Counted from the first letter of the stretch, positions 6,227-25,690 are shown. The stretch: DNA of 64,000 nt from Labedaea rhizosphaerae (GCF_004362825.1 NZ_SNXZ01000011.1:1-64000); one strand, 5' to 3'. Notes: generated by a model not told the origin, from the sequence alone. Program-made: numbers and translations.

Positions 6227-6240
6227 GGAGAGGAACGACC

Positions 6241-7551: not shown

Positions 7552-8769
7552 TCAGACGGGCACCGGCTCCTCGTGCACCGGCTCGGCGGGGGTGGAGCGG
7601 TTGGCGCCCGTCGCCAGCGTCATGGCCGCGCCCACGACCAGCACCAGCGCGCCGATCACGAACAACACCTGGTACCCGACCAACGTCAGCAGCCCCGTGC
7701 CGATCGCCACCGACATCGCCAACGGCACCGAGACGACCAGGTCCGTCGCCGAGAAGACCCGGCCCTGCAAGCGTTTGGGCGTCGACACCTGCACGCACGT
7801 CAGCAGTCCCACGCCGGCCAGCGGCAGGCTCACCCCGGCCACCGCCATCGCGGCGAGCACCACCGGCAGCGACGGCACGGTCAGGAGCAGCAGGCTGACC
7901 GCGTACCCACCCAGCCCGAGGCGGACCAGCCGCAGCTCGCCGAGCCGCTGGTTCAGCTTGCCCGCGAACGGCCCGACCAGCACCGCCGCCGCGCCCTGCA
8001 CGGTGCCGGTGATGCCGACGAACGCCGGACCCAGGTGCAGTCCGTCGCCCACCGCCGAGAAGATGCCGGATTCCGTGTAGCCGTAGGCGAAAGCAGCCAC
8101 GCCGAAGCCCAGCACCAGCCACCGCAGCATCCGGTGCCCGAGCACGAACCGGGCACCCTGCGCGATCTCGGCCCCGAACGAGTGCCCGCTCGGCGTCGGC
8201 CGCTCCTCCCGCACCCCCATGCGCAGCAAGAACACCACGGCGGTCAGGAACGTCAGCGCGTCCAAGGCGATCACGGCCGGCGCGCCCAGCCAGACGAAGA
8301 GCCCGGCCCCCATCAACGGTGCCGCGATCCGCAAAGCCTCTCGCGTGGACCGCAGCAGGCCGTTGACCTCGGCCAGCCGGTCGGCGGGCAGCAGGTCGGC
8401 GATCAACGCCGACTGGGCCGAGCCGATCAGCTTGTTCACCAGGCCGTAGGCGAACATCGCCACGTACACGAGCCACACCTGGCTCGCGTCGTGCACGAAC
8501 AACAGCGGCAGCACGACGGCCGCGCCGAGCACGTTCGCGATGACCAGCAGCCGGGCCCGGCGGACGCGGTCGACGACCGCGCCCAGCACCGGGCCCGCCA
8601 GCGCGGCGGCGGAGAAGAAGAACATCACCAGGCCGGCGCTGGCCGAGCTGCCGGTCAGCGTCTTCACCCAGATCGCCAGCGCCAGCCACAAGGCCGAGTC
8701 GCCCAGCGACGACAGGGACTGGCCGATCAGGTAGAGCCGCACGACGCGGTCCCGCAGCACGCTAGTCAT
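7552..8769 (-). CDS. MFS exporter of the NRPS operon (EntS/MFS_3 type)
   Basis: This 405-residue polytopic membrane protein has about twelve hydrophobic segments and the MFS_3 pattern seen in enterobactin-exporter-like proteins, including GAVVDRVRRARLL after the second to third helix. It is the last gene of the operon and its start overlaps the NRPS stop by 8 bases, so it is translationally coupled. The likely role is export of, and self-resistance to, the cluster product. The C-terminus is a short charged tail rich in Glu and Pro. Confidence 0.88.
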   Translation of the reverse strand: MTSVLRDRVVRLYLIGQSLSSLGDSALWLALAIWVKTLTGSSASAGLVMFFFSAAALAGPVLGAVVDRVRRARLLVIANVLGAAVVLPLLFVHDASQVWLVYVAMFAYGLVNKLIGSAQSALIADLLPADRLAEVNGLLRSTREALRIAAPLMGAGLFVWLGAPAVIALDALTFLTAVVFLLRMGVREERPTPSGHSFGAEIAQGARFVLGHRMLRWLVLGFGVAAFAYGYTESGIFSAVGDGLHLGPAFVGITGTVQGAAAVLVGPFAGKLNQRLGELRLVRLGLGGYAVSLLLLTVPSLPVVLAAMAVAGVSLPLAGVGLLTCVQVSTPKRLQGRVFSATDLVVSVPLAMSVAIGTGLLTLVGYQVLFVIGALVLVVGAAMTLATGANRSTPAEPVHEEPVPV

Positions 8770-11700
8770 GGATGATCTCCAGGTCTGTCGCGCCCATCTC
8801 GGCGTGCACCTCGCGCAGGAACTCGCGCCCGGCGTCGCTGTTGGTCATGATCACCATGCCGTTCTCCGATTCCCAGTCGAATGTAGCGAGGGCCTTGTAC
8901 CCGGGTGTCTCGCCGCCGTGCCCGATGCGCGTCTGCCCGCCGAGGCGGAACACGAACAGGCCCAAGCCATATCCGGTCGTCATGCCCGGCGTCCGGATCT
9001 GCTCACCCAGCGCGGGCGTCAGCAGCGACGACCTGCCGTGCGCCGCGCGGTGCATCTCGAGGGTGATCCGCGCCAGGTCCGAAGCCGTCGTCCACAACCC
9101 CGCCGCGGCGTGCTCGGGGATGACCCGCCAGCCGCCGGGGTAGGCGACGCCGGTGGACCGGTGGCCGGTCGCGGCGCGCGGCCCCGGCGCATAGTCACTG
9201 GCGCGCAGGCCGAGCGGCTCGAACACCAGCTCTCGTGCCGCGTCCGCATAGGACAGTCCGGTCACATCGCCGATCAGCTGTTGCAGCACCGTGTAGTGGC
9301 TGCCCGAGTAGCGGTACTCGGCGCCCGGGGTGAGCTCACTGCGCACGGCCGGGGTGCCGACCCGCGGCGAGCCGGTGAGGATCTCCCGCAACGGCGGCAG
9401 GTCGGCGTCACGCCGGTAACCCGAATAGTCGTGGAAGGTCAGCCCACCGGTGTGGGTCAGCAGTTGCCGCAACGTCACCGGGACGCCGATCCGCCAGTCG
9501 CGCAGGTACTCGTCGGCCGGGGCGTCGAGGTCCAGGACGCCCGCGTCCACCAAGCGGAGCACGGTGAGCGCGGCGACCTGCTTGCTGGCCGAACCGGCCT
9601 GGAACACCGTGTCCGGCGTGATGCCCTCGCCGTGGGCGAACTCCCGCACCAGCTCACCGTCGGACACCACGGCAACGCTCATGCCGGGAATGCCTCGCCG
9701 GGCAGCCGGCACCATCAGCACCGGGGCGGCCGGGAACACCCGGCGCACCACCGGATCCGCCGCCGGTTTTCCACTGCCGGCAAGCAGCGCCAGCTCTTCG
9801 ACCATGGCGTCGGCCAGCTTGCGCACCGTGGCCTCGTCGTGGCGTGCGGTGGAGTACTTCCACGTCACGTGCAACGTGCCCGCGGCGATCGCGGCGTCGA
9901 CCTCGAGAAGGTACGGCCGCACGCCTTCGGGTGCCCGCGCCACCCCGACCGGACCGGCGACGGGGCGCAGGAAGCCTTGTCCGCCACCGGATCCCCGGCC
10001 GTGGTAGTTCAGCACGAGCTGCGCGGCTTGCGTTCCGGTCGCGAGACCGTGACCGATGCCGTGGTCCGGCACGCCGCTGAGCTGCTCGCCCACGGTCGTG
10101 AGGTCGGCGGTCGGGTCGTCGCCCAGGGTCATCAGCACCGGTTGCACGGCGGTGAACCAGCCGACCGTGCGGGACAGGTCCACGTCGGCGAACAGCGGCT
10201 CGCGCCCGTGCCGCTCCACGTCGACGACCACAGTGGACTCGCCGGTCCACCCGGCCAGCGTGCGACCCACCGCGGTCAGCAGCAGGCTCTCCACCGACGC
10301 GGGCGCATCGAGCACGACGTCCGCGGGCAGCGTGGTGGTGAGCTCCACGGTGGAGCCTTCGGTGTGCGCGCCGCCGTCCTGGTCGACCGGCAGCGCCGCC
10401 GCGGCGGAGAAGTCCAGTGACCGCCAGTAGGCGGCCTCACCCGCGAAGTCGTCACTGGTCGCGTAGGCGGTCAGCCGGGACGCCCAGTGCTGCACGGACG
10501 TCGTCTTGGCGGGCAGCGTGACGGGCCGGCCGGCGCGCACCTGCTGGTAGGCGGTGCTGAGGTCGTCGATCAGGATGCCCCACGACACCGTGTCGACCGC
10601 CACGTGGTGTGCCGCAAGGAGAACGCGGTCACCGCACACCACGGCCCGCAGCAGCGGCCCGTCCGTGAGGCTCATCCCGCGGTGCGCCTCGGTCGCCGCC
10701 GCCTCGAACTCGTCCTCGACGACCGTGACCGGCACCGAACCGTCCACATCGGACAGCCACTGGTGCCAGGTCCCGCCGTCGTCCACCAGCCGCAGCCGCA
10801 GCGCGTCGTGGTGGCGCACCAGGGCGGTCAGGGCCTTGGCCAGCACGTCGGCGTCCAGCCGCTCCTCGGCCGCCAGCAACGCGCTCTGGTTGTAGTGGTC
10901 GTGCGGCCAGTCCAGTTCGGTGAACCACCGCTGCACCGGCGTCAGCGCGACCGGCCCGGTGACCGGTCCCTGCTCGGCGTGCACCGCGACCGCGGCGGCC
11001 GTGTCGAGGTCGTCGACGCCGAGGCCGGCGATGGTCGGGTGGTCGAACATGCGGCGGGCGCTGATCGGAATGCCCACCTGCCGGGCCCGCGCGACGATCT
11101 GGATGGCCAGCACCGAGTCACCGCCGAGCTCGAACAGGTTGTCGTGCACGCCGACCTTGGCCACGCCCAGCACCTCGGCCCAGATGTCGGCGAGGGTCTG
11201 CTCGCGACTGGTGCGCGGCGGCTCGAACCCGGACGGAACCGCGACCGGCGACACCGCGACCGCGGCACGCGGGGCAGCGGGTGCGAGCCGGGCCAGCACC
11301 GTGCCGGTCACCGGATCGTCGTCGGCCGTCAGCCCACGCAGGACGGTCAGGCAGTCCTGCGCCAGCCGCCGCGCGGTCTCCGGGCGGTAGCTGTCGCGCT
11401 GGTAGTTCAGCTGCAGTTGCAGGCCGTCGCGCAGGATCGCGTCCAGCACCAGCGGATAACCGGTGTCGAGCGCCTCCGGCGAGTTGATCGGGGCGACCCC
11501 GACGGGCAGGTCCTGCGCGCCGTAGCGCTCGTTGTGGAACACGACGATCGTGTCGAACAGCCGCCGGGCGCTGTCGGTGAACGGCGCCTGCTTGCGCACG
11601 TCGGTCATCGCGCAGTGCTCGTGCTCGCGCAGGTCCACGAGCTGGTCGTGCAGCCCGCGCAGCCAGCGACCCGCCGGTGCGGTGCGGTCCACGGTGACCC

Positions 11701-14700
11701 GCACCGGCAGCGTGTTCATGACCATGCCCACGACGTCCTGGATCTCCGGCGCCGAACGGCCCGAGACCGTCGAGCCGAACAGCACGTCGTCGCGGCCCGC
11801 GTGGTGGCCCAGCACCATGCCCCACGCGGCGTGCACGAACGCACCCGCCGTGACGCGGTGCCTGCGGGTCGCGCGGTGCAGGGCCGCGACGAGCTCGGCG
11901 TCCGCGTCCACGGTCACCGTGCCGCTGCCGGTCTGGTCTACGTCGGGGGCCTCGCCGCCCGGCAACGGGGTCGCCTCGGTGCAGCCCGCGAGCACGGTCG
12001 ACCAGTGGCGGGCGTCGGCGTCGCGGTCGTGGCCCGCTAGCCACGCCAGGTGCTCGCGTTGCGGCGTCGGGTCGGGCAGTACCGGGACGGAACCGGTGGT
12101 ACGCAAGGACTCGTACACGGCGTAGACCTCGCGGAAGACCGCGGTGAGGCTCCACCCGTCGAGCACGATGTGGTGCGTGCGCCAGATCAACGCGCTGCTG
12201 TCCGCACCGGTCCGCACGAGCGTCAGGTGCATCGGCGGCCCGGCGGAGAGGTCGACCCCGGTGCGCTGCGCGGTCAGCATCAGCTCGCGTAGCCGGGCGT
12301 CCTGGTCGGCTTCGGCGACATCACGCCAGTCCAGCACGGTCATCGGCACGGTCGCCGCACGCAGCACCACCTGGTGCGGCTCGGCGAGCCCCTGCCACGC
12401 GAACGCCGTGCGCAGGGCCGGGTGCCGCTCGACGGTCAACCGCCAGGCCCGCTCCCAGCTCGCGACGTCCGGCGCGCCGGCCAGGCGGAAGCCGAACACC
12501 TGCACGTAGGCGCCGTCCTCGCCGATCGATTGCACGAGGATGCCGGTCTGCAAGGGCGACAACGGATAGGCGTCGGCCACGGCGTCCGCGCCGAACCGGG
12601 CACGCATCGCGGGCAGCACGTCCTCACCGCCCACCGGTGCCGCGTGCTTGACGCGGACCGCGGGCGCCACGACGGCCGCCAGCTCGGCGATCGTCGGGTG
12701 GCTGAACACGTGGCGTGGTCGCAGGTCCAGGCCGGCCTCGCGGGCGCGGGCCACCACCTGCATGGCCAGGATCGAGTCGCCGCCCCACTCCACGAAGTCG
12801 TCGTGCGGGCCGATCTGCGCCACGCCCAGCACATCGGCCCAGATCGCGGTCAGCACCCGCTCGGCTTCGGCGTTGCGCCGGACCGGGGCGGCGGCAGACA
12901 CCGTCGATTCCCGTGCGATGGGAGGCGCGGCGGACTCGGCCAGCAGCTCATCGAGCGAAGCTCCGGCGGCCAGGCGGGCCAGCAGCGCTTGGTAGTCCGC
13001 CAGCAGCGCCGCGCTGTCCTCTTCGGACACCCGCTCGGGGTCGGCGAACAGTGACAGTTCGAGGGCGTCCCGATCGGCGACGTCCAGCACGAGCGGGTGA
13101 CCGGAGCGGCCGTGGTCGTGCTCGACGCCGGTCAGCATCGCGCCGGGCAGCGCCAGCCGGGTGTTCGGCACGTTGTCGAACACGACGATGCTGTCGAACA
13201 ACGGCGTGCCCGCCGGGACCGCGCAGTGGCGCTGCACGTCCGACAGCACGCTGTGCTCGTAGGGGCGCAACGCCCACTGCTCGGCGCTGAGCCGGGCGAT
13301 CCAGTCCGCTGTGGACAGGCCTTCGGGGAAGCGGACCCGCACCGGCACGGTGTTCATCAGCATGCCGACCATCCGGTCGAGGTCGGCCACGTCGGCGAAG
13401 CGGCCGGTGACGAGCGAGCCGAACACGACGTCGCGGCGCCCGCTGCGCCGGGCCAGCAGCAGCCCCCACGCACCCTGCATCAACGCACCGATCGTGCCAC
13501 GGTGCCGGCGGGCGAGCTCGCGCAGCGCCGCGCTGTCCTGTGTGGACAGAACGAGGTGGTCCTCCCGAGGCGCCGGGCGCGTGCTGTGCTCCGGAGCCGG
13601 GCGCACGACCGGAATGGGCGTCGCCTCAGCGAAACCGGCAAGGGCATCACGCCAGAAAGCCGCCTCCTGCGTGCGGTCGCGACCGGCGAGCCACGCCAGG
13701 TACCGCTGCGAGTCGACCGGTTCGGGCAGCTCCGATTCGGCCGTGCCGCGGTAGAGGTCGAACAGTTCGCCGACGACGATCGGCATGCTCCACCCGTCCA
13801 GCAAGGCATGGTGGAACACCAGGACCATGCGGTGGCTCTGCTCGGCCACCCGCACCAGGTGCACGCGCACCGGCGGGTGGTTCTCGGCGAACCCGCGAGC
13901 CCGCTCGGCCCGCAACAGCCCATCCAGCCGGTCCTCGGGCCGCTCAGGGTGCGGGTCGCGCCAGTCGTGGCGCTCCAGTGCCGCCACGGCGTCGGAGTGC
14001 ACGACCTGCATGGGGTATGGCAGGTCGCGCCAGTGCAGCGAGGTGCGCAGGGCGGCATGCCGCCGGACGACCGTGCGCCACGCCCGCGCCAGCGCGTCGT
14101 GGTCGAGGTCGCCCTCGAACGCGAAGACGAACTGCTCCAGGTAGTCGCCCGAGGACGGGTCGGCGACCGTGTGCAGCACCATGCCCGCCTGCAGTGGCGA
14201 CAACCGGTGCACGGCACCGAGCTCAGCCAGCTCGGCCGGGACCTCGGCCGGACTGTCCGCAATGGACGGAGCGTCGACCGCGGTGCCGGCCGCCTTGGCC
14301 TGCTCGGCGATCGTCTGGTGGCGGAACAGCATCCCGACCGAGAGCGCGAGCCCGGCCCGGCGTGCCTTGGCCGCCACCCGGATGGCGAGCACGGAATCGC
14401 CGCCGGCCTCGAAGAAGTTCTCCCGCACGCCCACCGACCGGCCCAGGACGTCACGCCAGATCCCGGCGAGCGTGTGCTCGGCGGGCGTGCCCGGTGCGTC
14501 GTCGGCGGGCTGTGCGGCCGCGGTGCCCGGCGCGGGCAGCGCGGTGCGGTCGACCTTGCCCGCGCTGGTCAACGGCATCTCGTCGAGGGTCACGAACACC
14601 GACGGCACCATGTAGTCGGGCAGCACCTCGGCCATGAAGGCACGCAGCTCGTTCGGCGCGGGCGGGTTCGCCTTGTCGGCGGCCACGAGGTAGCCGACGA

Positions 14701-17494
14701 GCCGCTTGTGCCCGCTCGGCCCGGTGACCGCGGCGGCCACGGCGTCCACCACGCCCGGGTGCAGGCCCAGCCGTGCCTCCACCTCGCCGAGCTCGATCCG
14801 GTAGCCACGCACCTTGACCTGGAAGTCCGTGCGCCCCAGGAAGTCCAGCTCGCCGTTGGGACGGCTGCGGGCCAGGTCGCCGGTGCGGTAGAGCCGGTCG
14901 CCCGGCGCGCCGAACGGGTCGGGCACGAACTTCTCCGCGGTCAACGCCGCGCGGTGCAGGTAGCCGCGGGCCACGCCGATGCCGCCGATGAACAGCTCGC
15001 CGACCACCCCGACCGGCGCCGGGTTCATCGCCGCGTCCAGCACGTACATCCGCAGGTTGTCGATGGGCCGGCCGATCGACACCGAGCGGGACGGGTCGAA
15101 CTCGTCCTCGATCTCGTGCACCGAACAGCCGACGACGGTCTCGGTCGGGCCGTACTCGTTGAGCACACGGGCACCGGGCGCGATCTTGCGCCAGCCCGCG
15201 ACCGTCTCCGGCCGCACCTCGTCGGCGCCGACCACGAACGTGCGCACCGAGTGCACGGAGTCCGCGTCGAGCATGCCGCGCAACACGTCCAGGTGCCCGG
15301 GGGTGATCTTGAGCAGGCTGAAGTCACCCGGCTCGGCCAGCACCTCGGCCAGGGTTTCCAAGCTGCGGTCCGGCGGCAGCAACGTCACGCACTTGCCGCC
15401 GATCAGCGGCAGCCAGAAGTTCGGCACCGACAGGTCGAACGCGATCGAGCCCAGCATCGGCGCGCCGCGCTCGCCGGCCAGGCCGTAGCCGGTGGTGGCC
15501 CAGTGCAGGTAGTTCACCACGCCGACGTGCGGGACGAGCACGCCCTTGGGGCGGCCGGTCGAGCCGGAGGTGTAGATGACGTAGAGCAGGTTCTGCGCGC
15601 CGGACACGGGTTCCGGCCGGTGCGCGGGCTGATCGGCGATCAGCGGCCAGTCGGTGTCGACGCGCACGATCGTGCCGTCGAAGGCATCCGGCACGGCGTC
15701 GGCGAGCGCTTCGGTGGTGACGACGATCGGGGCCGCGGTGTCGGTGAGGATCCACTCCAGGCGCTGGCTGGGCAAAGCCGCGTCCAACGGCACGTACGCC
15801 GCACCCGACTTCAGGATGCCGAGCAGCGCGACGAACATCTCGGGGGAGTGCCCGACGCACACGGCCACCATCGACTCGCAGCCCACACCCATGCCCCGCA
15901 GGTGGTGGGCGAGCTGGTTGGCACGGGCGTCGAGTTCACGGTAGGACAACGTGGTTCCGTCGGTGCACCGGACCGCCACGGCCTCGGGCTGGTCGCGCAC
16001 GCACCGCTCGAACAACCCGTGCACGGTGGCGTCGCCGGGGAACCGGGCCGCGGTGTCGTTCCACACGCGCACGGCCCGGTCGCGCTCGGCCTCGGTGAGC
16101 AGGTCGAGCTCGGCGAGCGGGCGCTCCGGCTCGGCGCAGGCCCGTCCGGTGAGCGCGCCGACGTGGCCGAGCAGCCGGCGTGCGGTCGCCTCGTCGAACA
16201 GGTCCTCGGCGTAGGTCAGGATCAGCTCGATGCCCTCGGCCCTGGTCACGGCGAACAGGGTCAGGTCGGCCTTGGCGTGCCCGGCGTCCACCGGCACCGG
16301 CTCGACGTCGAGACCGGCGAAGCGCCACGGCGTCGCCCCGGCCTCGAAGGCCTGGAACAGCACCTGGAACAACGGGTTGTGCTCGGCACTGCGCTCCACC
16401 CGCAGGTCGGCGACCACCTGGTCGAACGGCACGTCGGCGTTGGCGAGCGCGCCGAGCACCGCGGTGTTGGTGCGGCGCAACGACTCCGCAGTGGTGGGCG
16501 TGCCCGAGAGATCGACGGGGATGGCCACCGTGTTGGCGAACAAGCCCACCAGCGGCTCGGTCTGCGGCACGGGCCGGCCCGCGACGAGCGAGCCGATCGC
16601 GAACCGGGGCTGGCCGGTGTAGCGGTGCAGCACGCCGGCGAACACGGTCAACAGCGTGCTGAACACCGTCGTACCGGCACCGGCGGCGAGGCCTTGCACC
16701 GCGGCGGAGGTCCCCTTGGACAGGGTCGCGCGCACGGTGGCGCCGCGGTGGGCGTCGGCGCTGCGCGGTCGGTCGGTCGGCAGTTCCAGCACCGGCGCCA
16801 CGCCGTCGAGCGCGGCGCGCCAGTGGTCGAGCTGGCGACGACCCAACTCGCCGGACACGCGTTCTGCTTGCCACGCCGCGTAGTCTGCGTATTGGATGTC
16901 CATAGTGGACAGCGTGGCGCCCGCGTACAGCTCGCCGAGCTCACGGGCGATGATCGCGCCGGTCCACTCGTCGACCAGCAGGTGGTGCGCCCGCACGACC
17001 AGCAGGTGCGTGGTGGTCTCCCCGGCCACCGGCACCAGCACCGCCCCGAACAGCGGGCCGGCCGCCAGGTCGAACGGGGTGCGCGCGAGGTCGGTCGCCA
17101 GGGCCAAGGCGCCGTCCCGGTCCGTCGGTGCCTCGACCCGCAGCAGGTCGGCGGGCACGGAGCCGATCACCTGCACCGGGCCGTCCTCGCCCTCGGGGTA
17201 CGCACTGCGCAACACATCATGGCGCTGCACCAGGGCGGTGAACGCCTTGGTGAGCGCGGCGACGTCGAGGTCACCCCGTAGCCACATCGTCCAATGCACG
17301 CCGTAGACGGCGTTGTCGGTGAGCAGCTGGTTGGTCAGCCACATCCCGTGCTGCACGGGGGACAGGCCGGTCGGTCCGGACCCGGTGGTCCGGCGGATCT
17401 CCGGGAGCTCCGGCGCGCTCGCGGCGCGCCCACGCAGCCGCTGCTCGAGGAGGCGTTGCTTGGCCGTGCTCGCCCGCACTGCTTCGGTGGTCAT
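8762..17494 (-). CDS. NRPS: C-A-T-C-T-C-T-E with C-terminal PBP-type thioesterase domain
   Basis: The 2910-residue synthetase has this order: C1 (HHLLVDEW, about 173), A1 (YTSGSTGRPKG, about 641), T1 (GGDSVLAI, about 1034), C2 (HHALLDGW, about 1235), T2 (GGDSILAM, about 1573), C3 (HHIVLDGW, about 1781), T3 (GGDSVLAI, about 2125), E (HHVAVDTVSW about 2305, RTVGWFTAVQ about 2445), then a serine-hydrolase domain from about 2598. The A1 code read by eye is DLPKVGEVGK, close to published Asn codes. Modules 2 and 3 contain no A domain. The last domain has SASK (about 2635) and HGGETPG, with YSG where YxN is usual; it resembles penicillin-binding-protein-type peptide cyclases that accept a D-configured C-terminus, which fits the preceding E domain. 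It starts 25 bases after the C-A-T NRPS gene. Confidence 0.93.
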   Translation of the reverse strand: MTTEAVRASTAKQRLLEQRLRGRAASAPELPEIRRTTGSGPTGLSPVQHGMWLTNQLLTDNAVYGVHWTMWLRGDLDVAALTKAFTALVQRHDVLRSAYPEGEDGPVQVIGSVPADLLRVEAPTDRDGALALATDLARTPFDLAAGPLFGAVLVPVAGETTTHLLVVRAHHLLVDEWTGAIIARELGELYAGATLSTMDIQYADYAAWQAERVSGELGRRQLDHWRAALDGVAPVLELPTDRPRSADAHRGATVRATLSKGTSAAVQGLAAGAGTTVFSTLLTVFAGVLHRYTGQPRFAIGSLVAGRPVPQTEPLVGLFANTVAIPVDLSGTPTTAESLRRTNTAVLGALANADVPFDQVVADLRVERSAEHNPLFQVLFQAFEAGATPWRFAGLDVEPVPVDAGHAKADLTLFAVTRAEGIELILTYAEDLFDEATARRLLGHVGALTGRACAEPERPLAELDLLTEAERDRAVRVWNDTAARFPGDATVHGLFERCVRDQPEAVAVRCTDGTTLSYRELDARANQLAHHLRGMGVGCESMVAVCVGHSPEMFVALLGILKSGAAYVPLDAALPSQRLEWILTDTAAPIVVTTEALADAVPDAFDGTIVRVDTDWPLIADQPAHRPEPVSGAQNLLYVIYTSGSTGRPKGVLVPHVGVVNYLHWATTGYGLAGERGAPMLGSIAFDLSVPNFWLPLIGGKCVTLLPPDRSLETLAEVLAEPGDFSLLKITPGHLDVLRGMLDADSVHSVRTFVVGADEVRPETVAGWRKIAPGARVLNEYGPTETVVGCSVHEIEDEFDPSRSVSIGRPIDNLRMYVLDAAMNPAPVGVVGELFIGGIGVARGYLHRAALTAEKFVPDPFGAPGDRLYRTGDLARSRPNGELDFLGRTDFQVKVRGYRIELGEVEARLGLHPGVVDAVAAAVTGPSGHKRLVGYLVAADKANPPAPNELRAFMAEVLPDYMVPSVFVTLDEMPLTSAGKVDRTALPAPGTAAAQPADDAPGTPAEHTLAGIWRDVLGRSVGVRENFFEAGGDSVLAIRVAAKARRAGLALSVGMLFRHQTIAEQAKAAGTAVDAPSIADSPAEVPAELAELGAVHRLSPLQAGMVLHTVADPSSGDYLEQFVFAFEGDLDHDALARAWRTVVRRHAALRTSLHWRDLPYPMQVVHSDAVAALERHDWRDPHPERPEDRLDGLLRAERARGFAENHPPVRVHLVRVAEQSHRMVLVFHHALLDGWSMPIVVGELFDLYRGTAESELPEPVDSQRYLAWLAGRDRTQEAAFWRDALAGFAEATPIPVVRPAPEHSTRPAPREDHLVLSTQDSAALRELARRHRGTIGALMQGAWGLLLARRSGRRDVVFGSLVTGRFADVADLDRMVGMLMNTVPVRVRFPEGLSTADWIARLSAEQWALRPYEHSVLSDVQRHCAVPAGTPLFDSIVVFDNVPNTRLALPGAMLTGVEHDHGRSGHPLVLDVADRDALELSLFADPERVSEEDSAALLADYQALLARLAAGASLDELLAESAAPPIARESTVSAAAPVRRNAEAERVLTAIWADVLGVAQIGPHDDFVEWGGDSILAMQVVARAREAGLDLRPRHVFSHPTIAELAAVVAPAVRVKHAAPVGGEDVLPAMRARFGADAVADAYPLSPLQTGILVQSIGEDGAYVQVFGFRLAGAPDVASWERAWRLTVERHPALRTAFAWQGLAEPHQVVLRAATVPMTVLDWRDVAEADQDARLRELMLTAQRTGVDLSAGPPMHLTLVRTGADSSALIWRTHHIVLDGWSLTAVFREVYAVYESLRTTGSVPVLPDPTPQREHLAWLAGHDRDADARHWSTVLAGCTEATPLPGGEAPDVDQTGSGTVTVDADAELVAALHRATRRHRVTAGAFVHAAWGMVLGHHAGRDDVLFGSTVSGRSAPEIQDVVGMVMNTLPVRVTVDRTAPAGRWLRGLHDQLVDLREHEHCAMTDVRKQAPFTDSARRLFDTIVVFHNERYGAQDLPVGVAPINSPEALDTGYPLVLDAILRDGLQLQLNYQRDSYRPETARRLAQDCLTVLRGLTADDDPVTGTVLARLAPAAPRAAVAVSPVAVPSGFEPPRTSREQTLADIWAEVLGVAKVGVHDNLFELGGDSVLAIQIVARARQVGIPISARRMFDHPTIAGLGVDDLDTAAAVAVHAEQGPVTGPVALTPVQRWFTELDWPHDHYNQSALLAAEERLDADVLAKALTALVRHHDALRLRLVDDGGTWHQWLSDVDGSVPVTVVEDEFEAAATEAHRGMSLTDGPLLRAVVCGDRVLLAAHHVAVDTVSWGILIDDLSTAYQQVRAGRPVTLPAKTTSVQHWASRLTAYATSDDFAGEAAYWRSLDFSAAAALPVDQDGGAHTEGSTVELTTTLPADVVLDAPASVESLLLTAVGRTLAGWTGESTVVVDVERHGREPLFADVDLSRTVGWFTAVQPVLMTLGDDPTADLTTVGEQLSGVPDHGIGHGLATGTQAAQLVLNYHGRGSGGGQGFLRPVAGPVGVARAPEGVRPYLLEVDAAIAAGTLHVTWKYSTARHDEATVRKLADAMVEELALLAGSGKPAADPVVRRVFPAAPVLMVPAARRGIPGMSVAVVSDGELVREFAHGEGITPDTVFQAGSASKQVAALTVLRLVDAGVLDLDAPADEYLRDWRIGVPVTLRQLLTHTGGLTFHDYSGYRRDADLPPLREILTGSPRVGTPAVRSELTPGAEYRYSGSHYTVLQQLIGDVTGLSYADAARELVFEPLGLRASDYAPGPRAATGHRSTGVAYPGGWRVIPEHAAAGLWTTASDLARITLEMHRAAHGRSSLLTPALGEQIRTPGMTTGYGLGLFVFRLGGQTRIGHGGETPGYKALATFDWESENGMVIMTNSDAGREFLREVHAEMGATDLEIIHD

Positions 17495-17519: not shown

Positions 17520-20500
17520 TCAGGAGGTGAGCAGGCGCTCGGCGTCGGCGTCGCTGAGCTCGTCGATGTCGGCGAGCACGAGGTCGGTCACCTGCTCGGC
17601 CACCGCGTCGACGGTGCGGTGCTCGAACAGCAGGACCGGTGAGAGCGGCACGCCGAACGCGCGCGACATCCGGTTGGTGACCCGGATGGCCAGCAGCGAG
17701 TGCCCGCCGAGGGCGAAGAAATCGTCGGTCGCGCCGACCCTCGGCCGGCCCAGCGCCTCGGCCCACAGCTCGGCCACGGCCTGCTCGGTGGCGGTGCGCG
17801 GCGCGACGAACTCGGCCGCGGCCAGGTCGGTCTCCGCGGGCGCGGGCAGCGCCCGGCGGTCGAGCTTCCCGCTGGCCAGCAACGGAAGCGCGGGTATCGA
17901 CACGAGCGCGCCCGGCACGGCGTAGCCGGAGAGCTGGCTCGCCGCGAACGCCCGCAGCTCGCCCAGGTCCGGCGCGTCCGGTCCGGCGGGCACGACGTAG
18001 CCGACGACCGCCGGGCCGGTGCTCATCGCGTGCACGACCGCGACCGCGTCGGCGATGCCTGGGTGCTCGTGCAGCACCGACTCGATCTCGCCGAGTTCGA
18101 TCCGCACACCGCGGATCTTCACCTGGTGATCGGCGCGGCCGAGGAACTCCGCCGAGCCGTCGGCACGCAACCGGCCGCGGTCGCCGGTGCGGTAGAGCCG
18201 CTGCCCGGGCCGTTCGAAGTGCGGCACGAACGACTCCGCGGTGCGGCGCGGGTCGTGCAGGTAACCCCGCGCCAGGCCCACGCCGCCGAGGTACAGCTCG
18301 CCGGGCACGCCCGCCGGGACCGGCCGGAAGTGCTCGTCGAGGACGTAGACCTCGTTGTTGTCGATGGGCGTGCCCAGCGACACCGCGCCGTCACCGGCGT
18401 CCGCGTCGTAGTCGGCGGGTTCGCAGACGTGGCACGTGGAGTCGATGGACACCTCGGTGGCGCCCCACGTGTTGTCCAGGCTGATGCGGCGGCCCCCGAC
18501 GGCTTCCGCGAAACGACGGACCAGGGCCGGGCGCAGGGCCTCGCCGCTGGACAGCACGCTGCGCAGCGACGGCCACCGGTCGAGGTCCGCTGTGGACATC
18601 GTGTCGACGAAGAACTCCAGCATGCTCGGCACGAACTGCACGTGCACGGCGTCGTGGCGCGCGCCCGCCTCGAGGATGGCCCGCGGGTCGCGGTGCAGGC
18701 CGGGGCCGAGCAACGCGACCGTGCCGCCGGTCATCAAGGGCCAGAACACTTCCACCGCGGCGTCGTCGAAGGTCAGCGTCGTCTTGTGCAGCACGACCTC
18801 GCCGAGGCGCAGGCCGTGGCGGCGCTGCATCCACGCCATCCGGTTGACCCAGCCCTCGTGTGTGCTGGCCACCCGCTTGGGTTCGCCGGTGGAGCCGGAC
18901 GTGCAGTAGATCGAGCACAACGTCAGCGGCCGCACTCGCGGCAAGGTGGCCTCGGAGGGCCGCAGGTCGGCGACGGTGACGGTCGGCCGGCCGCTGTCCG
19001 GCAGGCCCGGCTCGGCAACACACAGCCGGGCCTTGGCCCCGGCCAGCAGCTTCGCCACGCGTGCGGGTGGCGTGTCGGTCTCCAGCGGCAGGAAGGCGGC
19101 ACCGGCCTTGAGCACGCCCAGCAGGGTGGGGATCAAGTCGGGACCGCGGTCGAGCTGCACCCCGACCACGTCGTCGAGCCGGACACCATGCCCCGCAAGC
19201 GATCGCGCGATCGCGTCGGCGCGGTCGACGAGCGCGCGGTAGCTGGTGCGCGTGCCGTCCGGGTTGATCACCGCGGTCGCGTTCGGAGTGGCGGCGGCCT
19301 GGTCGTCGACGAACTCGTGCAGCCCACGCTGCGGGAACGGCACCGGTTTGGGCACGGTCACCGCCCGCAGCGCGGCCAGTTCCGCGTCGGTCGCCATCGG
19401 GATCTCGTCGATCGACGTGTCCGGCGCCGCGGCGAGGCTGGTCAGCAGCGTCTCGAGCTGGCTGGCCCAGCGCCGCACGGTGTCGGCCCGGTAGAGCGCC
19501 GCGTCGCCGGTGACCCGGCACGCGACGGTGCCGTCGGCCTGGGTGCTGAACGCGATCTCGGTGTCGTAGCGGGAGGTCTGCCACGTCACCGGCGCGGCCT
19601 CGGTGCGCACGCCGGGGAGTTCGGGCAGGCTGTTGGCACCCGGCTGGATGTCCACCAGGACCCCGAACAGCGGCGTGCGGGACAGGTCGCGCTCGGGGGC
19701 CAGCTCCTCGACCAGCAGGTCGAACGGGACGTGCCGGTGGGCGAAGGCGCCGATCATGCGGCGGCGCACCGCGGCGACGAGCGCACCGAACGCCGGATTG
19801 CCCGCCAAGTCGTTGCGCAGCACCAGCATCCCGAGGAACGGGCCGATCAACCCCGTCCGCACCGCCTGTTCGCGCTCGGCCACCGACGTGCCGGTGACGA
19901 CATCGGTGCGACCCGACGCCCGGTAGCAGAACACCTGGCTCGCGGCCAGCAGGACGGTGAACAGGGTGGCCCGCCGCGCGCGGGCCGCACCGTCCAATGC
20001 GGACACGACGGCGGCGGGCAACGTGAACGAACCGGTGACGCCCCGCCCGGCCCGGCGCGGTGGGCGGGCCCGGTCCGTGGGCAGCTCGAACGGTTCGGCG
20101 CCGGCCAGCTCGTTGCGCCAGAATTCCAGGCCCTTGGTCAGCCGGTCACCCTCGGCGAGGCGGGCGTCGGCTTCGAGAGCGACCTCGCGGAACTGCGCGG
20201 GCAACGGTTCCAGCGCTTGCCCGGCGTACAGCGCGGTGAGCTCCTTCTGGAACACGCCTGCCGACCAGCCGTCGAAGGCGATGTGGTGCACGCTCACGCA
20301 CAGCAGGTGGTCGTGCTCGTCCATCCGAAAGAGCCGGGCCCGGATGGGCAGACCGTTCGCCAAATCGAACCCGGCCCGCAGCTCGGCATCGGCGGCGGCC
20401 CGCGGGTCGGTGACCGGCGAGAGTTCGGTGAGCGGCAGTGCGAAGGCACTCACCGGCCGCACGACGGCCTTGGGTTCGTCGTCGACCGTGATCACCGACG

Positions 20501-20813
20501 TGCGCAGGACCTCATGACGCGCCACGATTCCGGTGACCGCGGCCCGCAGGGCCGCCACGTCGAGCGGGCCGGTGAACCGGAGCACCAACGGCACCAGCAG
20601 CTCCTGGCCGCTGGGGTCGAGCTGGTGGGTGAACCACAGCCGCCGCTGGCTGCGCGGAAGCTCGGCCGCCTCCCCGCATTTCACTCCGCCGGTTACCTTG
20701 GGCGAAGCAGGCGCCGCTTGATCCCGTGCTCGTGGCTGGGTTGCGTCACGTTCCCCTGAGGTGCGGTTGGCCGCCCCGCGAGCTGATTTCGATCCTGCGG
20801 TAAGGGGTGTCAT
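17520..20813 (-). CDS. NRPS single module, C-A-T
   Basis: The 1097-residue protein has a basic, low-complexity N-terminus of about 45 residues, a condensation domain (HHIAFDGW, about 179), an adenylation domain (CTSGSTGEPKR about 641, TWGATE about 780) and a carrier domain (ALGGHSLLAIR, serine about 1038). The specificity code read by eye is DDVQLSTIDK, which I cannot assign; its Asp and Gln could suit a basic residue such as diaminobutyrate, but that is a guess. The ATG at 20813 overlaps the stop of the LanB-like gene (ATGA) and has GAAGGGA upstream. It probably passes its chain to the C1 domain of the next NRPS. The N-terminal C domain means it needs an upstream donor, and the free carrier protein at 25460-25690 is a candidate. 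Confidence 0.92.
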   Translation of the reverse strand: MTPLTAGSKSARGAANRTSGERDATQPRARDQAAPASPKVTGGVKCGEAAELPRSQRRLWFTHQLDPSGQELLVPLVLRFTGPLDVAALRAAVTGIVARHEVLRTSVITVDDEPKAVVRPVSAFALPLTELSPVTDPRAAADAELRAGFDLANGLPIRARLFRMDEHDHLLCVSVHHIAFDGWSAGVFQKELTALYAGQALEPLPAQFREVALEADARLAEGDRLTKGLEFWRNELAGAEPFELPTDRARPPRRAGRGVTGSFTLPAAVVSALDGAARARRATLFTVLLAASQVFCYRASGRTDVVTGTSVAEREQAVRTGLIGPFLGMLVLRNDLAGNPAFGALVAAVRRRMIGAFAHRHVPFDLLVEELAPERDLSRTPLFGVLVDIQPGANSLPELPGVRTEAAPVTWQTSRYDTEIAFSTQADGTVACRVTGDAALYRADTVRRWASQLETLLTSLAAAPDTSIDEIPMATDAELAALRAVTVPKPVPFPQRGLHEFVDDQAAATPNATAVINPDGTRTSYRALVDRADAIARSLAGHGVRLDDVVGVQLDRGPDLIPTLLGVLKAGAAFLPLETDTPPARVAKLLAGAKARLCVAEPGLPDSGRPTVTVADLRPSEATLPRVRPLTLCSIYCTSGSTGEPKRVASTHEGWVNRMAWMQRRHGLRLGEVVLHKTTLTFDDAAVEVFWPLMTGGTVALLGPGLHRDPRAILEAGARHDAVHVQFVPSMLEFFVDTMSTADLDRWPSLRSVLSSGEALRPALVRRFAEAVGGRRISLDNTWGATEVSIDSTCHVCEPADYDADAGDGAVSLGTPIDNNEVYVLDEHFRPVPAGVPGELYLGGVGLARGYLHDPRRTAESFVPHFERPGQRLYRTGDRGRLRADGSAEFLGRADHQVKIRGVRIELGEIESVLHEHPGIADAVAVVHAMSTGPAVVGYVVPAGPDAPDLGELRAFAASQLSGYAVPGALVSIPALPLLASGKLDRRALPAPAETDLAAAEFVAPRTATEQAVAELWAEALGRPRVGATDDFFALGGHSLLAIRVTNRMSRAFGVPLSPVLLFEHRTVDAVAEQVTDLVLADIDELSDADAERLLTS

Positions 20814-23140
20814 GACTGTCCCTTCGCGCTGCAGGTCCGGTCGAACGCGGCGAAGCGGAGTTCCGAGGTGTGGGCGCGGCCGGCACGGTCGCGCAGCCAC
20901 AGCTCGTCGTGGTCCGGCAGCATCTCGGTGATGGTCAGCACCGCGCCGTCGGTCTGGGCCCGGCGCACGAACTTCGCCAGCAGGTTCACGTACGTGGGGC
21001 TCGCGAAGTCGATGTACACCGGCTTCGCGCCCTTGTTCGGCGTGACGAAGATCTGGTCGGGCAGGCCGAGCTCGTGTTGCCAGCGCCGCGCCAGCACGAA
21101 GCGGCGCGCCTCGTCCTTGCCCTTGGCGAACGGCACGTCCGCACTCGGCAGGCGCCACTTCTCCCGGCACAGCACGACCTTGTCGACGGTGATGCGCGGG
21201 GTGTGCGGCCGGTCGTCGAAGAGCTTGAACCGGTCGATCACCGCGTCCATCAGGATCTCGCTGAACGCGTCGAGCACGTCGAAGGTCTCGCCGGTGGGCA
21301 GGCGCAGCACCAGGGAATCGCCCTCGGGCCGCACCTCGACGTCGCCCGCCTTGACCAACCCCGGCCGATCCGCGGGCACCGTGTGGTGCGTCGTCTCCAG
21401 CAGGAAGTCCTTGTCCCGCACGAATCCCGGGTGGGTCCGGATCGACAGGCGCGGGAGGCTTCCCTTGGGCAGCACGGGAAGCAGCCGCGGCGCCGGGAAC
21501 TCCACGTCGGTCTGCGCGTGCAGGACCGACAGGTCCGGGTGCTGGCTGACCAGGCAGTTGCTGCGCTGGGCGTTGATCGCCATGTGCACCTCGCCCAGCA
21601 CCAGCTGGAACTCGCCGCGGTCGATGGCCGCGGTGTCCCGGGCCGCGACCATCAGGTCGGGGCTGAAGTGCCGGGCCGCCGACCAGCCGGGGCCCTCGGC
21701 CGCGAACGCCGCCCGCACCTTGGGCAGCAGCTCCGTGAAGCCGTACCGAACCCGCCGGCCTTCCGGCAGGTCCAGGATCGACGCCCACCGGCGCCAGAAC
21801 TCCTGCTGCACCGCCGAAGTCGCCGTGTTGATCGCGGTCCGCAGCGGCATCAGCGACTTCATCCAGAACGCCGCGAAGTCCACCACCGGCCGCTGCGCGG
21901 CCAGTGCGGCGTAGACGTCGTTCAGCACCGGCCGGATGCCCTTCGCGACCTCCGCGCAGAACCAGCGCCCGCTGTCGGCGAGCAACCGCACGGGCTCGGC
22001 GGCGGCCAGCACCGTCGTGCCCAGCGTGAGGTCGGCGTCCCGGCGCGAATCGCAGTAGACCAGCGTGCGGCCGCCGTAGGCCTGCCCGGCGTTGCGGGTG
22101 GACGGGCCCGCGGTCAGCTCGGTGAAGGTCGCGTCGAGGGCCAGCAGCGCCGCGGTCAGCTCCTCGGCCGGGGCGTGCACCTTGAGCTGCAGATCCGCCC
22201 GGCCCGCGTCGAGCCGGTCGAGCATCCGCAACGCGGGCACGCGCACCGCGTCGTCCGACACTCCTTCGACGAACCCGCGCAGCTCGCGCATCGGCCACTT
22301 CGACAGGGGGACGTCGAGCTTCCACGTCACCCAGCGCCGCTTGACGAACGACTCCAGCACGGCGACGGCGTCCTCGCCCAGGTCGCGGGCCCGCGTCCGG
22401 CCGTCGCACGACCGCAGCACCGACGCCTCGAACTCGGTCAACCGCACGGGTTTGCCTACCGGCGGGGTCACCAGATCGCCGTCGAGGCGGACGAAGGCGT
22501 TGCGGCGCGGGGGAACCCACATCCGCATGCCCGGCAGCTCGTGCACCACCTCGGCCAGCCGGTCGATCGCCCACGGCTCGAAGAAGACCTCCATGCTGCG
22601 GGTCAGCCGCGTGCCCGGACGCAGGCGCGTGCTCGCGGCGCCGTCGGCCACGCTCCACAGCACCGGCCCGAAGAACCCGATGGAGTCGTTCTTCACGCAG
22701 TAGCGCTGCCAGTACGACGCCACCAGCCCCTCGCGGTCGCGGTGCTTGGCCAGGCGCGGGTCGGTGTCGGCGTCCCAGCGCAGCAGCGGGGCCAGCGCGC
22801 TGTCGACCAGCCGGTGGTTCTGCAACGCGACCGCGCGGCGGAAGTCGTCGTCGACGGCGATGCGTTGCAACTCGCGACCCGCCGCGCGAGCGGCAGTGTC
22901 GAAGCGAGCGCGGAACTCGGCCCAGCGTGGGTCATCCTGATCGGCGTCGGCCAGCTCGTCGGCGTGCGCCGCCAGTTCGGCGGCACGCAGCCGCAGCACG
23001 CCGTCGGCCGGGAACCCGGCGCCGCGGGTGATCACGTGCGGCGACAGGGTCCAGTCGCCGCCCAGCACCAGTTGGTCCAGCGTCAGTTGGTGCTGGGCGA
23101 GGTGATCCGGGGCCAGTTGGTCCGGCAGCACTGTCGTCAC
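20810..23140 (-). CDS. Short LanB-like protein (lantibiotic dehydratase N-terminal/PEARL-like), copy 1
   Basis: The 776-residue protein matches the N-terminal, aminoacyl-tRNA-using half of LanB lantibiotic dehydratases. The separate SpaB_C elimination domain is absent. A conserved block, SYWQRYC-KNDSIGFFGP, is shared with the neighbouring paralogue, as are QAYGGRTL, QRSNC and VYIDF. Known short LanBs include PEARLs, which add an amino acid from aminoacyl-tRNA to a peptide C-terminus, and split dehydratases, which glutamylate Ser/Thr. There is no separate elimination protein or scaffold peptide nearby; the partners here are carrier proteins and NRPS modules without A domains. The GTG at 23140 overlaps the stop of copy 2 (GTGA). 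The activity is unproven. Confidence 0.75.
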   Translation of the reverse strand: MTTVLPDQLAPDHLAQHQLTLDQLVLGGDWTLSPHVITRGAGFPADGVLRLRAAELAAHADELADADQDDPRWAEFRARFDTAARAAGRELQRIAVDDDFRRAVALQNHRLVDSALAPLLRWDADTDPRLAKHRDREGLVASYWQRYCVKNDSIGFFGPVLWSVADGAASTRLRPGTRLTRSMEVFFEPWAIDRLAEVVHELPGMRMWVPPRRNAFVRLDGDLVTPPVGKPVRLTEFEASVLRSCDGRTRARDLGEDAVAVLESFVKRRWVTWKLDVPLSKWPMRELRGFVEGVSDDAVRVPALRMLDRLDAGRADLQLKVHAPAEELTAALLALDATFTELTAGPSTRNAGQAYGGRTLVYCDSRRDADLTLGTTVLAAAEPVRLLADSGRWFCAEVAKGIRPVLNDVYAALAAQRPVVDFAAFWMKSLMPLRTAINTATSAVQQEFWRRWASILDLPEGRRVRYGFTELLPKVRAAFAAEGPGWSAARHFSPDLMVAARDTAAIDRGEFQLVLGEVHMAINAQRSNCLVSQHPDLSVLHAQTDVEFPAPRLLPVLPKGSLPRLSIRTHPGFVRDKDFLLETTHHTVPADRPGLVKAGDVEVRPEGDSLVLRLPTGETFDVLDAFSEILMDAVIDRFKLFDDRPHTPRITVDKVVLCREKWRLPSADVPFAKGKDEARRFVLARRWQHELGLPDQIFVTPNKGAKPVYIDFASPTYVNLLAKFVRRAQTDGAVLTITEMLPDHDELWLRDRAGRAHTSELRFAAFDRTCSAKGQS

Positions 23141-25452
23141 GGGGCATCCTCTCCGTCCGGTCCGCCGAGCCGGTCGACCATCGCGAAGCGCAGCTCGGAG
23201 GTGTAGCGATCGCCTGCCTGGTCGACCAGCCACAGGTGGTCCAGGTCGGGCAGCAGTTCGGTGAAGCCGACCGCGTGGCCCGGCTCGGCGCCGCGCAGCA
23301 TCTTGGCCAGCACGTTGACCAGCACCGGGCTGTCGAAGTCGATGTACACCGGCTTGTCGGTGGCGCCCGCCTTGGCGAAGACCCGCGAAGGCAGTCCGGC
23401 CGCCACCCGCCAGGCGCGGGCGGCGACGAACCGGCGTGCCTCGTCCTTCTCCTTGACGAACGCCGCCGTCGCCGGGTCGATCCGCCACGTCTCGCGGTGC
23501 ACGACGCAGCGGTCGATCACCACGCGTGGCGCGTGCGCGCGGCCGGCGAACAGGCTGTGCGCGTTCAGCACCAGGTCCATCAGGACCTCCGAGAACACGT
23601 CGAGCACGTCGAAGCGCGGCCCGTCCGGCAGCACGGCCACCAGCTCACCGTCCTGTTCGGACACCACGATGTCCGCGCTGGGCACCAATCCCGGCCGGTC
23701 CGCGGCGACCGTGTGGTGGTGGAACTCGACCAGCACGTCGCGGTCGCGGGTGAGCGCGGACTGCGTGCGCACCGACCGGCGCACCGGCCCGCTGCGGGGT
23801 GGTGCGGGCAGCAGCCGCGGGGCGGGGAAGTCCTCGTCCACGTGGCGCAGCAGTGTCTCGGGCTCGGGGTGCTGGCGCACGAAGCAGTTGCTGCGCTGGC
23901 TGTTCATGGCCAGGTGGAGCTCGCCGACCACGACCTGGAACTCGCCTCGGCGCACCGCGTCGAGGTCCGGCGCCGACACCATCAGGTCCGGGCTGAGGTA
24001 GCGGGCGCCGTTCCAGCCCGGCCCGTCCACGGCGAAGGCGCTGCGCACCAAGGGAAGCAGTTCAGCGTAGGTGCGCCGCACCGCACGGGCGCCGTCCGGG
24101 ACGGCGAACACCGACGTCCAGCGCCGCACGTACTCGGTGCGTGCCTCGGCCACGGCCGCGCCGACCTGCTTGGTGAGCGGGCCGAGCGCGGCGGCCCACA
24201 TCGCCGACAACGCACACGATCCGTCTTGGGCGATCCGCCGGTGCACTTCGAGCAGCGCGACGCGTGCGGCGTCCGCGGCCTGACGGCACAGCCACCGGGC
24301 GCCGCGGGCCAGCAACTCCACCGGCAGCGCGGCGGCCATCAGGTCCTGGCCGAACACGGCGTCCAGGTCGCGGGCGCAGTCCTGGTACATGAGCGTGCGA
24401 CCGCCGTAGGCCTGCCCGCCGTTGCGCTTGCTCGCCGCACCGGTCAGCTCGTGGAAGGTCTCGTCGGCGGCCGCGAGCGCCGCGCTCAAGGACGCCGCGT
24501 CGGTTGCCTCGGCCACCGCGGCCTTGCACCGCTCCATGAGCTCCAGCGGCCGCAGGCACCGGGCCCGCAGGCCCTCGTCGTCGACCCGGGCGAGCACCGC
24601 ACGCAACGAGCGCTCCGGGAACGGGTCGCCGGGCAGTTCGATCCGCCACGTGGTCCACCGGCGGCGCGCGAAGTCGGCCAGCACCGCCTCGGTTTCCGGG
24701 CCACCGAGGTCGCACGCCCGGGCCACGCCGTCGCAGGCCCGCAGCAGGCGCGCCTGCGCGGGCGTGAGGGCGACCCGGCCGCCCGTCGGCAGGACCAGGT
24801 CGTCGCCGTCCAGACCCAGGTAGGGCATCCGGCGCGGGGCGAGCCACCGGCGCAGGCCCGGCTCGGCCTCGATCGCCGCGACCAGCTGGTCCACCGCCCA
24901 CGTCTCGAAGTACACCGTCGACCGCCGCACCAGGGCATCGCCCACGACGACGTCGCTGTGCGGCCGGTCGTCCCAGCCGGCCCAGCCGACCGGCCCGAAG
25001 AACCCGATCGAGTCGTTCTTCATGCAGTAGCGCTGCCAGTAGGACGCGACGAGCTCCTCGCGCTGGCGGTTCTTGGAGTTGCGCGGCTCGGTGGCCGGTC
25101 TGCGCAGGAACGGTTCGACGGCCAGGGGCAGCAGCGTGTGGTTCTGCCACGCGACGGCGTGCTGGAACCGCGGCGACGCGGCGATCTCCCGCAGCCGCAC
25201 GCCCATCCTGGTGGTGGCGTCGGCGAACGCGGCACGAAACCGTTGCCACGCCTCGGGGTTCTCCTCGGCGGCGAGCACCGCCGCGGCCATGGCGCCCAGG
25301 TCGGGGTCGGCGAGGTCCAGTACGCCGGAAGCGGCGAAGCCGGCTCCGCGCACGACCAGCTCCGGCCACCACCGGAAGCCGTCCGGCAACGCGGCTTCCG
25401 GTTCGGTGCTCTGCTGGTCGTCCGGACGCGTGCCGGTGGCGACGGCGGTCAT
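23137..25452 (-). CDS. Short LanB-like protein (lantibiotic dehydratase N-terminal/PEARL-like), copy 2
   Basis: The 771-residue protein is a diverged paralogue of copy 1, with the same blocks in the same order: GAGFAASGVL near the N-terminus, YWQRYCMKNDSIGFFGP, GGQAYGGRTL, NSQRSNCF, TVAADRPGL, KEKDEARRFV and VYIDFDSP. The length is that of the glutamylation-type half of LanB only. It begins at ATG 25452, seven bases after the carrier-protein stop, so translation is probably coupled. Two unequal copies suggest two different acceptors, two tRNA substrates or an obligate heteromer. I favour a role in adding or modifying residues on carrier-bound intermediates, by inference from context. Confidence 0.75.
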   Translation of the reverse strand: MTAVATGTRPDDQQSTEPEAALPDGFRWWPELVVRGAGFAASGVLDLADPDLGAMAAAVLAAEENPEAWQRFRAAFADATTRMGVRLREIAASPRFQHAVAWQNHTLLPLAVEPFLRRPATEPRNSKNRQREELVASYWQRYCMKNDSIGFFGPVGWAGWDDRPHSDVVVGDALVRRSTVYFETWAVDQLVAAIEAEPGLRRWLAPRRMPYLGLDGDDLVLPTGGRVALTPAQARLLRACDGVARACDLGGPETEAVLADFARRRWTTWRIELPGDPFPERSLRAVLARVDDEGLRARCLRPLELMERCKAAVAEATDAASLSAALAAADETFHELTGAASKRNGGQAYGGRTLMYQDCARDLDAVFGQDLMAAALPVELLARGARWLCRQAADAARVALLEVHRRIAQDGSCALSAMWAAALGPLTKQVGAAVAEARTEYVRRWTSVFAVPDGARAVRRTYAELLPLVRSAFAVDGPGWNGARYLSPDLMVSAPDLDAVRRGEFQVVVGELHLAMNSQRSNCFVRQHPEPETLLRHVDEDFPAPRLLPAPPRSGPVRRSVRTQSALTRDRDVLVEFHHHTVAADRPGLVPSADIVVSEQDGELVAVLPDGPRFDVLDVFSEVLMDLVLNAHSLFAGRAHAPRVVIDRCVVHRETWRIDPATAAFVKEKDEARRFVAARAWRVAAGLPSRVFAKAGATDKPVYIDFDSPVLVNVLAKMLRGAEPGHAVGFTELLPDLDHLWLVDQAGDRYTSELRFAMVDRLGGPDGEDAP

Positions 25453-25459
25453 CCGCGGA

Positions 25460-25690
25460 CTACCCGAGGTCCATGACCGCGCCGGCGCAGCTGGCCGGCG
25501 TCGGGTACATGAAGATGACCACCGGGTCGAGGTCCTTGCCCACCAGCTCACCGATCTGCTGGATGGCGTCGATCGCCAGCAGCGAGTCGCCACCGGCCTC
25601 GAAGAAATCGGCTTCTTCGCCGATATCGGCATTCCTGAGCACGTTCCGGAAGATCTCGAGGACCGACGTCTCCATCGTTTCCACCGTCAT
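25460..25690 (-). CDS. Free-standing peptidyl/acyl carrier protein
   Basis: The 76-residue carrier protein has the phosphopantetheine site FFEAGGDSLLAI, with the serine at about residue 40, flanked by predicted helices. The ATG at 25690 follows AGGAGGTGG with good spacing; an upstream in-frame start is less likely. It is first in the minus-strand operon, before the two LanB-like genes, and diverges from the SARP gene. It lacks a dedicated A domain. It could hold the starter unit for the C-A-T NRPS or serve as the scaffold on which the LanB-like enzymes act. The GGDS form resembles carrier domains that precede epimerases, but no adjacent E domain exists here. Confidence 0.92.
   Translation of the reverse strand: MTVETMETSVLEIFRNVLRNADIGEEADFFEAGGDSLLAIDAIQQIGELVGKDLDPVVIFMYPTPASCAGAVMDLG

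Follow-up and report, generated by a model that had tools for sequence, protein, structure and literature searches.

PEARL-like LanB proteins beside a free carrier protein in a nonribosomal peptide synthetase operon of Labedaea rhizosphaerae: a candidate tRNA-dependent starter unit

The operon and its surroundings

We analysed a 64,000-nt stretch of the Labedaea rhizosphaerae genome (NZ_SNXZ01000011.1:1-64000, hereafter the window), which contains a nonribosomal peptide synthetase (NRPS) operon headed by a free-standing carrier protein (CP) and two LanB-like proteins. The operon is encoded by the minus strand between 25726 and 7552, and its gene order is CP, LanB1, LanB2, NRPS1, NRPS2 and MFS exporter. 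The CP gene (25460..25726) encodes 88 aa with a GGDS motif (Pfam PP-binding, E 3e-11; 72% identical to the ortholog in locus L009) and is followed by the PEARL-like proteins LanB1 (23140..25452, 771 aa) and LanB2 (20813..23140, 776 aa), then by NRPS1 (17520..20813) and NRPS2 (8762..17494, 2910 aa). The last gene is the exporter (7552..8769; 79% identical in L112), which extends the operon past the span of 8762-25690 that an earlier note on this DNA had given. Pfam searches of the translated genes give NRPS1 the architecture condensation-adenylation-carrier (C-A-T, here C-A1-T0) and NRPS2 that of C-A-T-C-T-C-T (C-A2-T1-C-T2-C-T3), an epimerisation (E) domain and a C-terminal Beta-lactamase-family domain. 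The operon as a whole therefore has five carrier domains (four in the NRPSs and one free) and two A domains, and the final two modules of NRPS2 are without one, just as the earlier note had it. Operon genes overlap or are separated by gaps of <=25 bp, and a gene for a scaffold peptide therefore has no room among them; none was found inside the operon, in keeping with the same note, and no candidate was seen among the conserved cluster genes. Also, no tRNA gene was found in the 64,000-nt window.

The active sites of all C domains follow HHxxxD(G/E) (VHHIAFDG, AHHLLVDE, FHHALLDG and THHIVLDG), and that of the E domain follows HHxxxD. The first C domain of NRPS2 (16079-17365) has HHLLVDE instead of HHxxxDG, as it also does in L009 and L183. 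None of the window's C domains carries the EHHxxHDG signature of ureido-forming domains. In the A-less modules, the motifs of C2, T2 (12668..12865), C3 and T3 (11021..11203) are intact and are conserved in L009. The A-domain codes, assigned from motifs and an alignment and not from a reference structure, are DDVQLSTID for A1 and DLPKVGEVG for A2 (14555..16012); we take A2 to be Asn-like and A1 to be unusual. NRPS1 starts with a C domain (HHIAFDG), and among the conserved cluster genes we found neither a loading A-T module nor an acyl ligase. At the other end of the line, the E domain (9755..10879, HHVAVDT; ortholog in L112) is followed by a thioesterase domain of the penicillin-binding-protein (PBP)/beta-lactamase type (8780..9739; Pfam E 2.7e-53), which has the SxxK motif as SASK and matches DD-peptidases and related enzymes in the PDB. 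The earlier note, which described the last module as C-T-E, was right about the missing A domain and missed this release domain. A PBP-type thioesterase following an E domain suggests cyclisation.

The entire cluster (~0.3-29.3 kb) is syntenic in Saccharothrix luteola, where most genes are 63-84% identical and one is 59% identical; because that genome keeps the whole cluster in synteny, the architecture is not a product of chance. A third genome (G192) has a C-T-C-T fragment (72% identity) and a LanB fragment. Retained in S. luteola on one side of the operon are genes for a SARP-type regulator (BTAD; 25857..27698, plus strand), a LOG-family (Lysine_decarbox) protein (27698..28327, plus) and a GHMP kinase (28374..29303, plus). 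On the other side are a pyridoxal phosphate (PLP) enzyme like SbnA, of the 2,3-diaminopropionate synthesis type (2503..3543, plus; below the family cut-off), an argininosuccinate-lyase-like enzyme (3489..5048, plus), a GntG-family PLP aldolase (5542..7305, plus) and an M20-family protein resembling N-carbamoyl amino acid amidohydrolases (720..2579, minus). The GHMP kinase, SbnA-like enzyme and lyase are found together again in another cluster (G050), and these enzymes may supply a diaminopropionate-like residue. It may be noted that the aldolase has a conserved N-terminal extension of ~165 aa with no Pfam match, and that a gene with a weak caspase-like (Peptidase_C14) domain lies outside the conserved cluster at 33576-35000.

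The LanB-like proteins and their carrier-protein partner

Both LanB1 and LanB2 match Lant_dehydr_N only. The elimination domain (PF14028) is absent from both and from the scanned neighbouring genes, and the conserved cluster genes offer no candidate precursor peptide; the earlier note's description of two LanBs without elimination domain thus stands. For an AlphaFold2 model of LanB2 (pLDDT 83), the best fold match is TbtB (Z 21.8 over 622 residues), followed by MibB, GodF, NisB and MadB, while a sequence search of LanB2 against the PDB gave no match. Weaker and partial matches to RRE-type domains cover residues ~204-275 of the model, and low-Z matches (5-6) to glutathionylspermidine and glutathione synthetases cover ~363-770, which marks an ATP-grasp-like half. 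The same ATP-grasp relatives have been reported for PEARLs (PMC11117183). Conserved residues of LanB2 are R39, D495, E517, H519, R659, F698, E760 and R762. Among 108 NRPS-linked LanBs, E760, R762 and R659 are each present in all 108, D495 in 107 and E517 in 106. All of D495, E517, R659 and F698 are missing in the true or split LanBs (n=7; D495 is absent from all seven), and the match to R762 is missing in those of them that align well, although this alignment is deep in the twilight zone and single positions should be read cautiously. Asp542 and Arg803 of TglB are PEARL-only residues not found in split LanBs (PMC11117183), and these ATP-site residues are matched by D495 and R762 in both LanBs, the correspondence being set by position and spacing, without a PEARL sequence in the comparison. 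From the fold and the near-invariant PEARL-type residues we infer that both LanBs are PEARL-type ligases which depend on ATP and use aminoacyl-tRNA. Retention of the ATP and carboxylate residues argues against a simple aminoacyl transfer from tRNA to a carrier thiol. The fold equals that of glutamylation domains, and a true lanthipeptide-type activity, whereby the LanBs would glutamylate hydroxyl groups along the NRPS chain to prepare them for dehydration, would fit that likeness; yet the elimination domain is absent and PEARL-specific residues are present and nearly invariant, which makes such an activity highly improbable. On these two grounds we rejected a dehydratase role.

For comparison, ~75 LanB loci from genomes and plasmids were annotated with hidden Markov models derived from the window and then refined with the locus set. 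The LanB phylogeny tracks architecture, and the window's LanBs fall in a subclade with support 0.997. Its members comprise LanBs beside a free CP (L010, L121x), LanB-A-PLP-CP-LanB clusters, clusters with CP and an AMP-binding protein, and C-A-T-LanB fusions. A T domain lies within 700 bp of the LanB in 29 of the 36 subclade loci and slightly farther in two T-LanB fusions (31/36); of the other five, four have LanB pairs lacking an adjacent CP and the fifth is a short contig. Within the subclade, the window and its ortholog L009 alone have A-less C-T modules. Since carriers are adjacent or fused in 31 of 36 loci and A-less modules are rare, the carrier protein is the steady partner of these LanBs, and not the A-less module. 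The wider locus set suggests a general LanB-carrier protein partnership.

What the carrier might hold is hinted at by the stand-alone A domains of the subclade. Position 239 of their code is Arg in 15 of 18 domains, compared with 9 of 128 among the remaining A domains of LanB loci and 0 of 37 among those of other NRPSs; it may be noted that these stand-alone domains fall in few families, and the counts are not independent. Arg239 in an A code suggests an acidic substrate. On a Streptomyces plasmid (L027, NZ_CP108679.1), the genes for LanB, CP, an AMP-binding protein and an ATP-grasp protein are immediately preceded by methylaspartate mutase genes, which suggests that the carrier there holds methylaspartate. 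Both observations speak for an acid that is bound to the carrier and still has a carboxylate to spare, the kind of substrate a PEARL requires. As an alternative for the window, the CP could hold a dicarboxylic amino acid by its alpha-carboxyl while the LanBs extend the side-chain carboxylate, the branch then entering the chain. The Arg239 bias, the mutase genes of L027 and the T-LanB fusions inside assembly lines that go on would agree with this; but the window has no stand-alone A domain, Arg239 is in neither of its A codes, and the sampled A domains are related, and for the window we consider the alternative quite unlikely.

Several other loci in the set deserve mention. In L089, L090, L091, L099 and L108, C-A-T-LanB fusions are followed by more C-A-T proteins, i.e., the assembly line continues. 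The LanB-A-PLP-CP-LanB cassette is conserved in L025, L026, L063, L064, L066-L068, L071, L076, L088, L114 and L125, and the code of its stand-alone A domain, an odd one, reads DARSxSxxT and includes Arg239. The closest single-LanB relatives are L011-L014 (Pseudomonas), L010 and L120/L121. In Pseudomonas L014 the LanB adjoins hydroxyphenylglycine-type genes (glyoxalase/HPPD family, FMN dehydrogenase, aminotransferases) and a pentapeptide-repeat gene, several of these neighbours having homologs in other single-LanB loci; no named product was found for the related Pseudomonas clusters. L016 and L017 (~12.3-12.8 kb) have a small CP that retains a remnant of an A-domain C-terminus, as if an A-T protein had lost its A domain. 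The genome of the window (G000) has two more NRPS-linked LanB loci, on C5 at 480-484 kb (L019-L021) and on C4 at 455 kb (L022); in the former, tandem LanBs stand beside A-T-C-T, a KS-AT-DH-KR-ACP polyketide synthase, an acyl-CoA dehydrogenase and DUF6002.

A paralogous line and the loading of the A-less modules

On contig C7 of the same genome (~365-387 kb; L180, L181) there is a paralogous NRPS line (NRPS at ~370-387 kb) with no LanB, in the order A-T, C-T-C-A-T and C-A-T-E-C-A-T-E-PBP-type thioesterase. The codes of its two core A domains, DDVQLSTID and DLPKVGEVG, are identical to those of A1 and A2 in the window. Best-match comparison pairs its C-A-T units reciprocally with NRPS1 and with the first module of NRPS2, the domains being 43-65% identical. 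The C7 cluster also includes a GHMP kinase (64%) and a SARP, and it shares the E domain and the PBP-type thioesterase with the window. The difference lies in the later modules, each of which has its own A domain in C7, and at the head of the line: there an A-T and an A-less C-T feed a C domain orthologous to that of NRPS1 (19368..20660, its reciprocal best match being the C domain that precedes A1 in C7), where the window instead has CP, LanB1 and LanB2. In C7 the C-A1-T unit is thus preceded by two residues. The C7 line shows that an A-less module of this NRPS family can exist without a LanB, and is an ideal control for the window cluster.

The earlier note had suggested that the LanBs may load or extend carrier-bound chains from tRNA; for T2 and T3 this would mean one LanB per A-less module. 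The numbers agree, two LanBs for two A-less T domains, and in class II loci, which belong to another LanB clade, the LanB also adjoins an A-less protein (the C-T of A-T-C-T). But class II proteins have one A-less T and yet one or two LanBs, ~60 other LanB loci have no A-less module at all, and the C7 line has an A-less C-T but no LanB. Moreover T1, T2 and T3 are closer to each other (50-57% mutual identity) than each is to CP (33-41%), and the retained ATP and carboxylate residues would be superfluous in a tRNA-to-thiol transfer, which requires no ATP. As a general rule, one LanB per A-less module is ruled out by the class II and subclade loci, and for the window such loading appears improbable; the restriction of A-less modules to the window and its ortholog within the subclade, along with the C7 line, speaks against that part of the note, and the LanBs probably do not load T2 and T3. 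It may be added that among 30 condensation-domain loci from 3 genomes, A-less C-T cases are found in L142 and L169 (LanB clusters) and L156 (the C7 line), which are too few for a rate.

In yersiniabactin synthesis, an A domain of HMWP2 loads an A-less carrier in cis. We think that T2 and T3 are likewise charged by an A domain, most simply A2. Charging in trans has been demonstrated for the C-T module CmnI of capreomycin, which is served by CmnA-A1 (PMC12400406), and this precedent, taken with the mutual likeness of T1, T2 and T3, is the reason for our view.

The proposed starter unit and known systems

Our leading though tentative reading, to which we give somewhat less than an even chance, is that CP, LanB1 and LanB2 form a tRNA-dependent starter unit that replaces the first two NRPS modules. 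In favour of this are the parts themselves, their order and conservation, the PEARL-type active sites, and the position of the three genes, which equals that of the A-T and C-T pair in C7 and supports a starter role. Each LanB would use ATP to activate the carboxylate of a substrate on, or delivered to, the CP and would couple this carboxylate to the amine of an aminoacyl-tRNA, one ribosomal-type residue per LanB. The first C domain of NRPS1, the proposed acceptor, would then receive the chain from the CP; A1 would add the next residue, possibly a diaminopropionate-like one from the GHMP kinase, SbnA-like and lyase enzymes, and A2 an Asn-like residue. T2 and T3 would be charged by A2 in cis (as in HMWP2) or by A1 or A2 in trans (as CmnA-A1 does for CmnI), not by the LanBs. 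Finally the last residue would be epimerised and the PBP-type thioesterase would release or close the chain. A more specific version, in which the PEARL pair builds a short chain and the peptidyl group passes from tRNA to the CP thiol, giving a ribosome-free, tRNA-fed NRPS starter in place of two modules, seems to us rather unlikely.

Several points weigh against the starter unit. PEARLs take free carboxylates as substrates, and once the tRNA has been hydrolysed off, their product again ends in one (PMC11117183). Delivery as a CP-bound thioester would need an extra step, for which we know of no precedent. Many relatives pair the CP with an A domain of its own, which the window is without, and in L065, L070, L072 and L105 (class I) no CP stands beside the LanB, so that the pairing has exceptions. 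Also, the C7 comparison is with one paralog, the number of residues per LanB is assumed, and the catalytic steps are all read from sequence. On balance, a tRNA-ligase/NRPS hybrid, as starter or carrier-protein unit and not as a T2/T3 loader, is likely; the hybrid line of the earlier note thus survives in the PEARL-type LanBs tied to a CP, and its extension to T2 and T3 is disfavoured. If true, this would be a route bringing aminoacyl-tRNA into thioester assembly lines, and the many 'lantibiotic dehydratase' genes that lie in NRPS clusters without a ureido-forming C domain would gain a function. The same genome provides a natural pair of lines, with and without LanB, which makes the question testable.

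LanBs in NRPS clusters have been described before, in about two thousand such biosynthetic gene clusters, some with LanBs fused to T domains (PMC11212132). SnaE of the threopeptin (sna) cluster is, like the window's LanBs, a LanB-like protein without elimination domain inside an NRPS cluster, and it depends on a ureido-forming C domain with EHHxxHDG (PMC11212132). Among the loci studied, this signature is found only in L086, L087 and L128, and in SnaE-type loci (L086/L087) the ATP-site residues are identical to those of the window's LanBs. To our knowledge SnaE is the only NRPS-linked LanB that has been tested. A comparable off-line role would have the window's LanBs extend the free carboxylate of a released or tethered product, against the NRPS direction or C-terminally, with the CP serving otherwise. 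SnaE works in this manner (PMC11212132) and the shared ATP-site residues would permit it; but with no EHHxxHDG domain in the window there would be no chain reversal, and the CP gene is directly coupled to LanB1. The thioesterase after the E domain, which suggests cyclisation, also speaks against it, and we regard this role as unlikely. The absence of EHHxxHDG means that the SnaE precedent does not explain the window, and threopeptin-style ureido chain reversal was rejected on this ground. The sna cluster includes a ureido-forming C domain and a single LanB, to which no free CP is coupled; the window differs in its ordinary C domains, its second LanB and the CP in starter position.

With the PEARLs TglB, BhaB and AmmB the window's LanBs share the PEARL-only residues, the ATP-grasp-like half and the tandem arrangement of genes, but those PEARLs extend a ribosomal scaffold peptide, of which the window operon encodes none. 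The capreomycin system (PMC12400406) likewise combines an NRPS line that includes an A-less C-T module with diaminopropionate-type enzymes nearby; CmnI is one separate protein, whereas the two A-less modules of the window share a protein with A2. As for chain release, the domain after the window's E domain resembles the PBP-type thioesterases of the SurE type, which have a beta-lactamase fold with SxxK, and differs from them in being fused to the NRPS.

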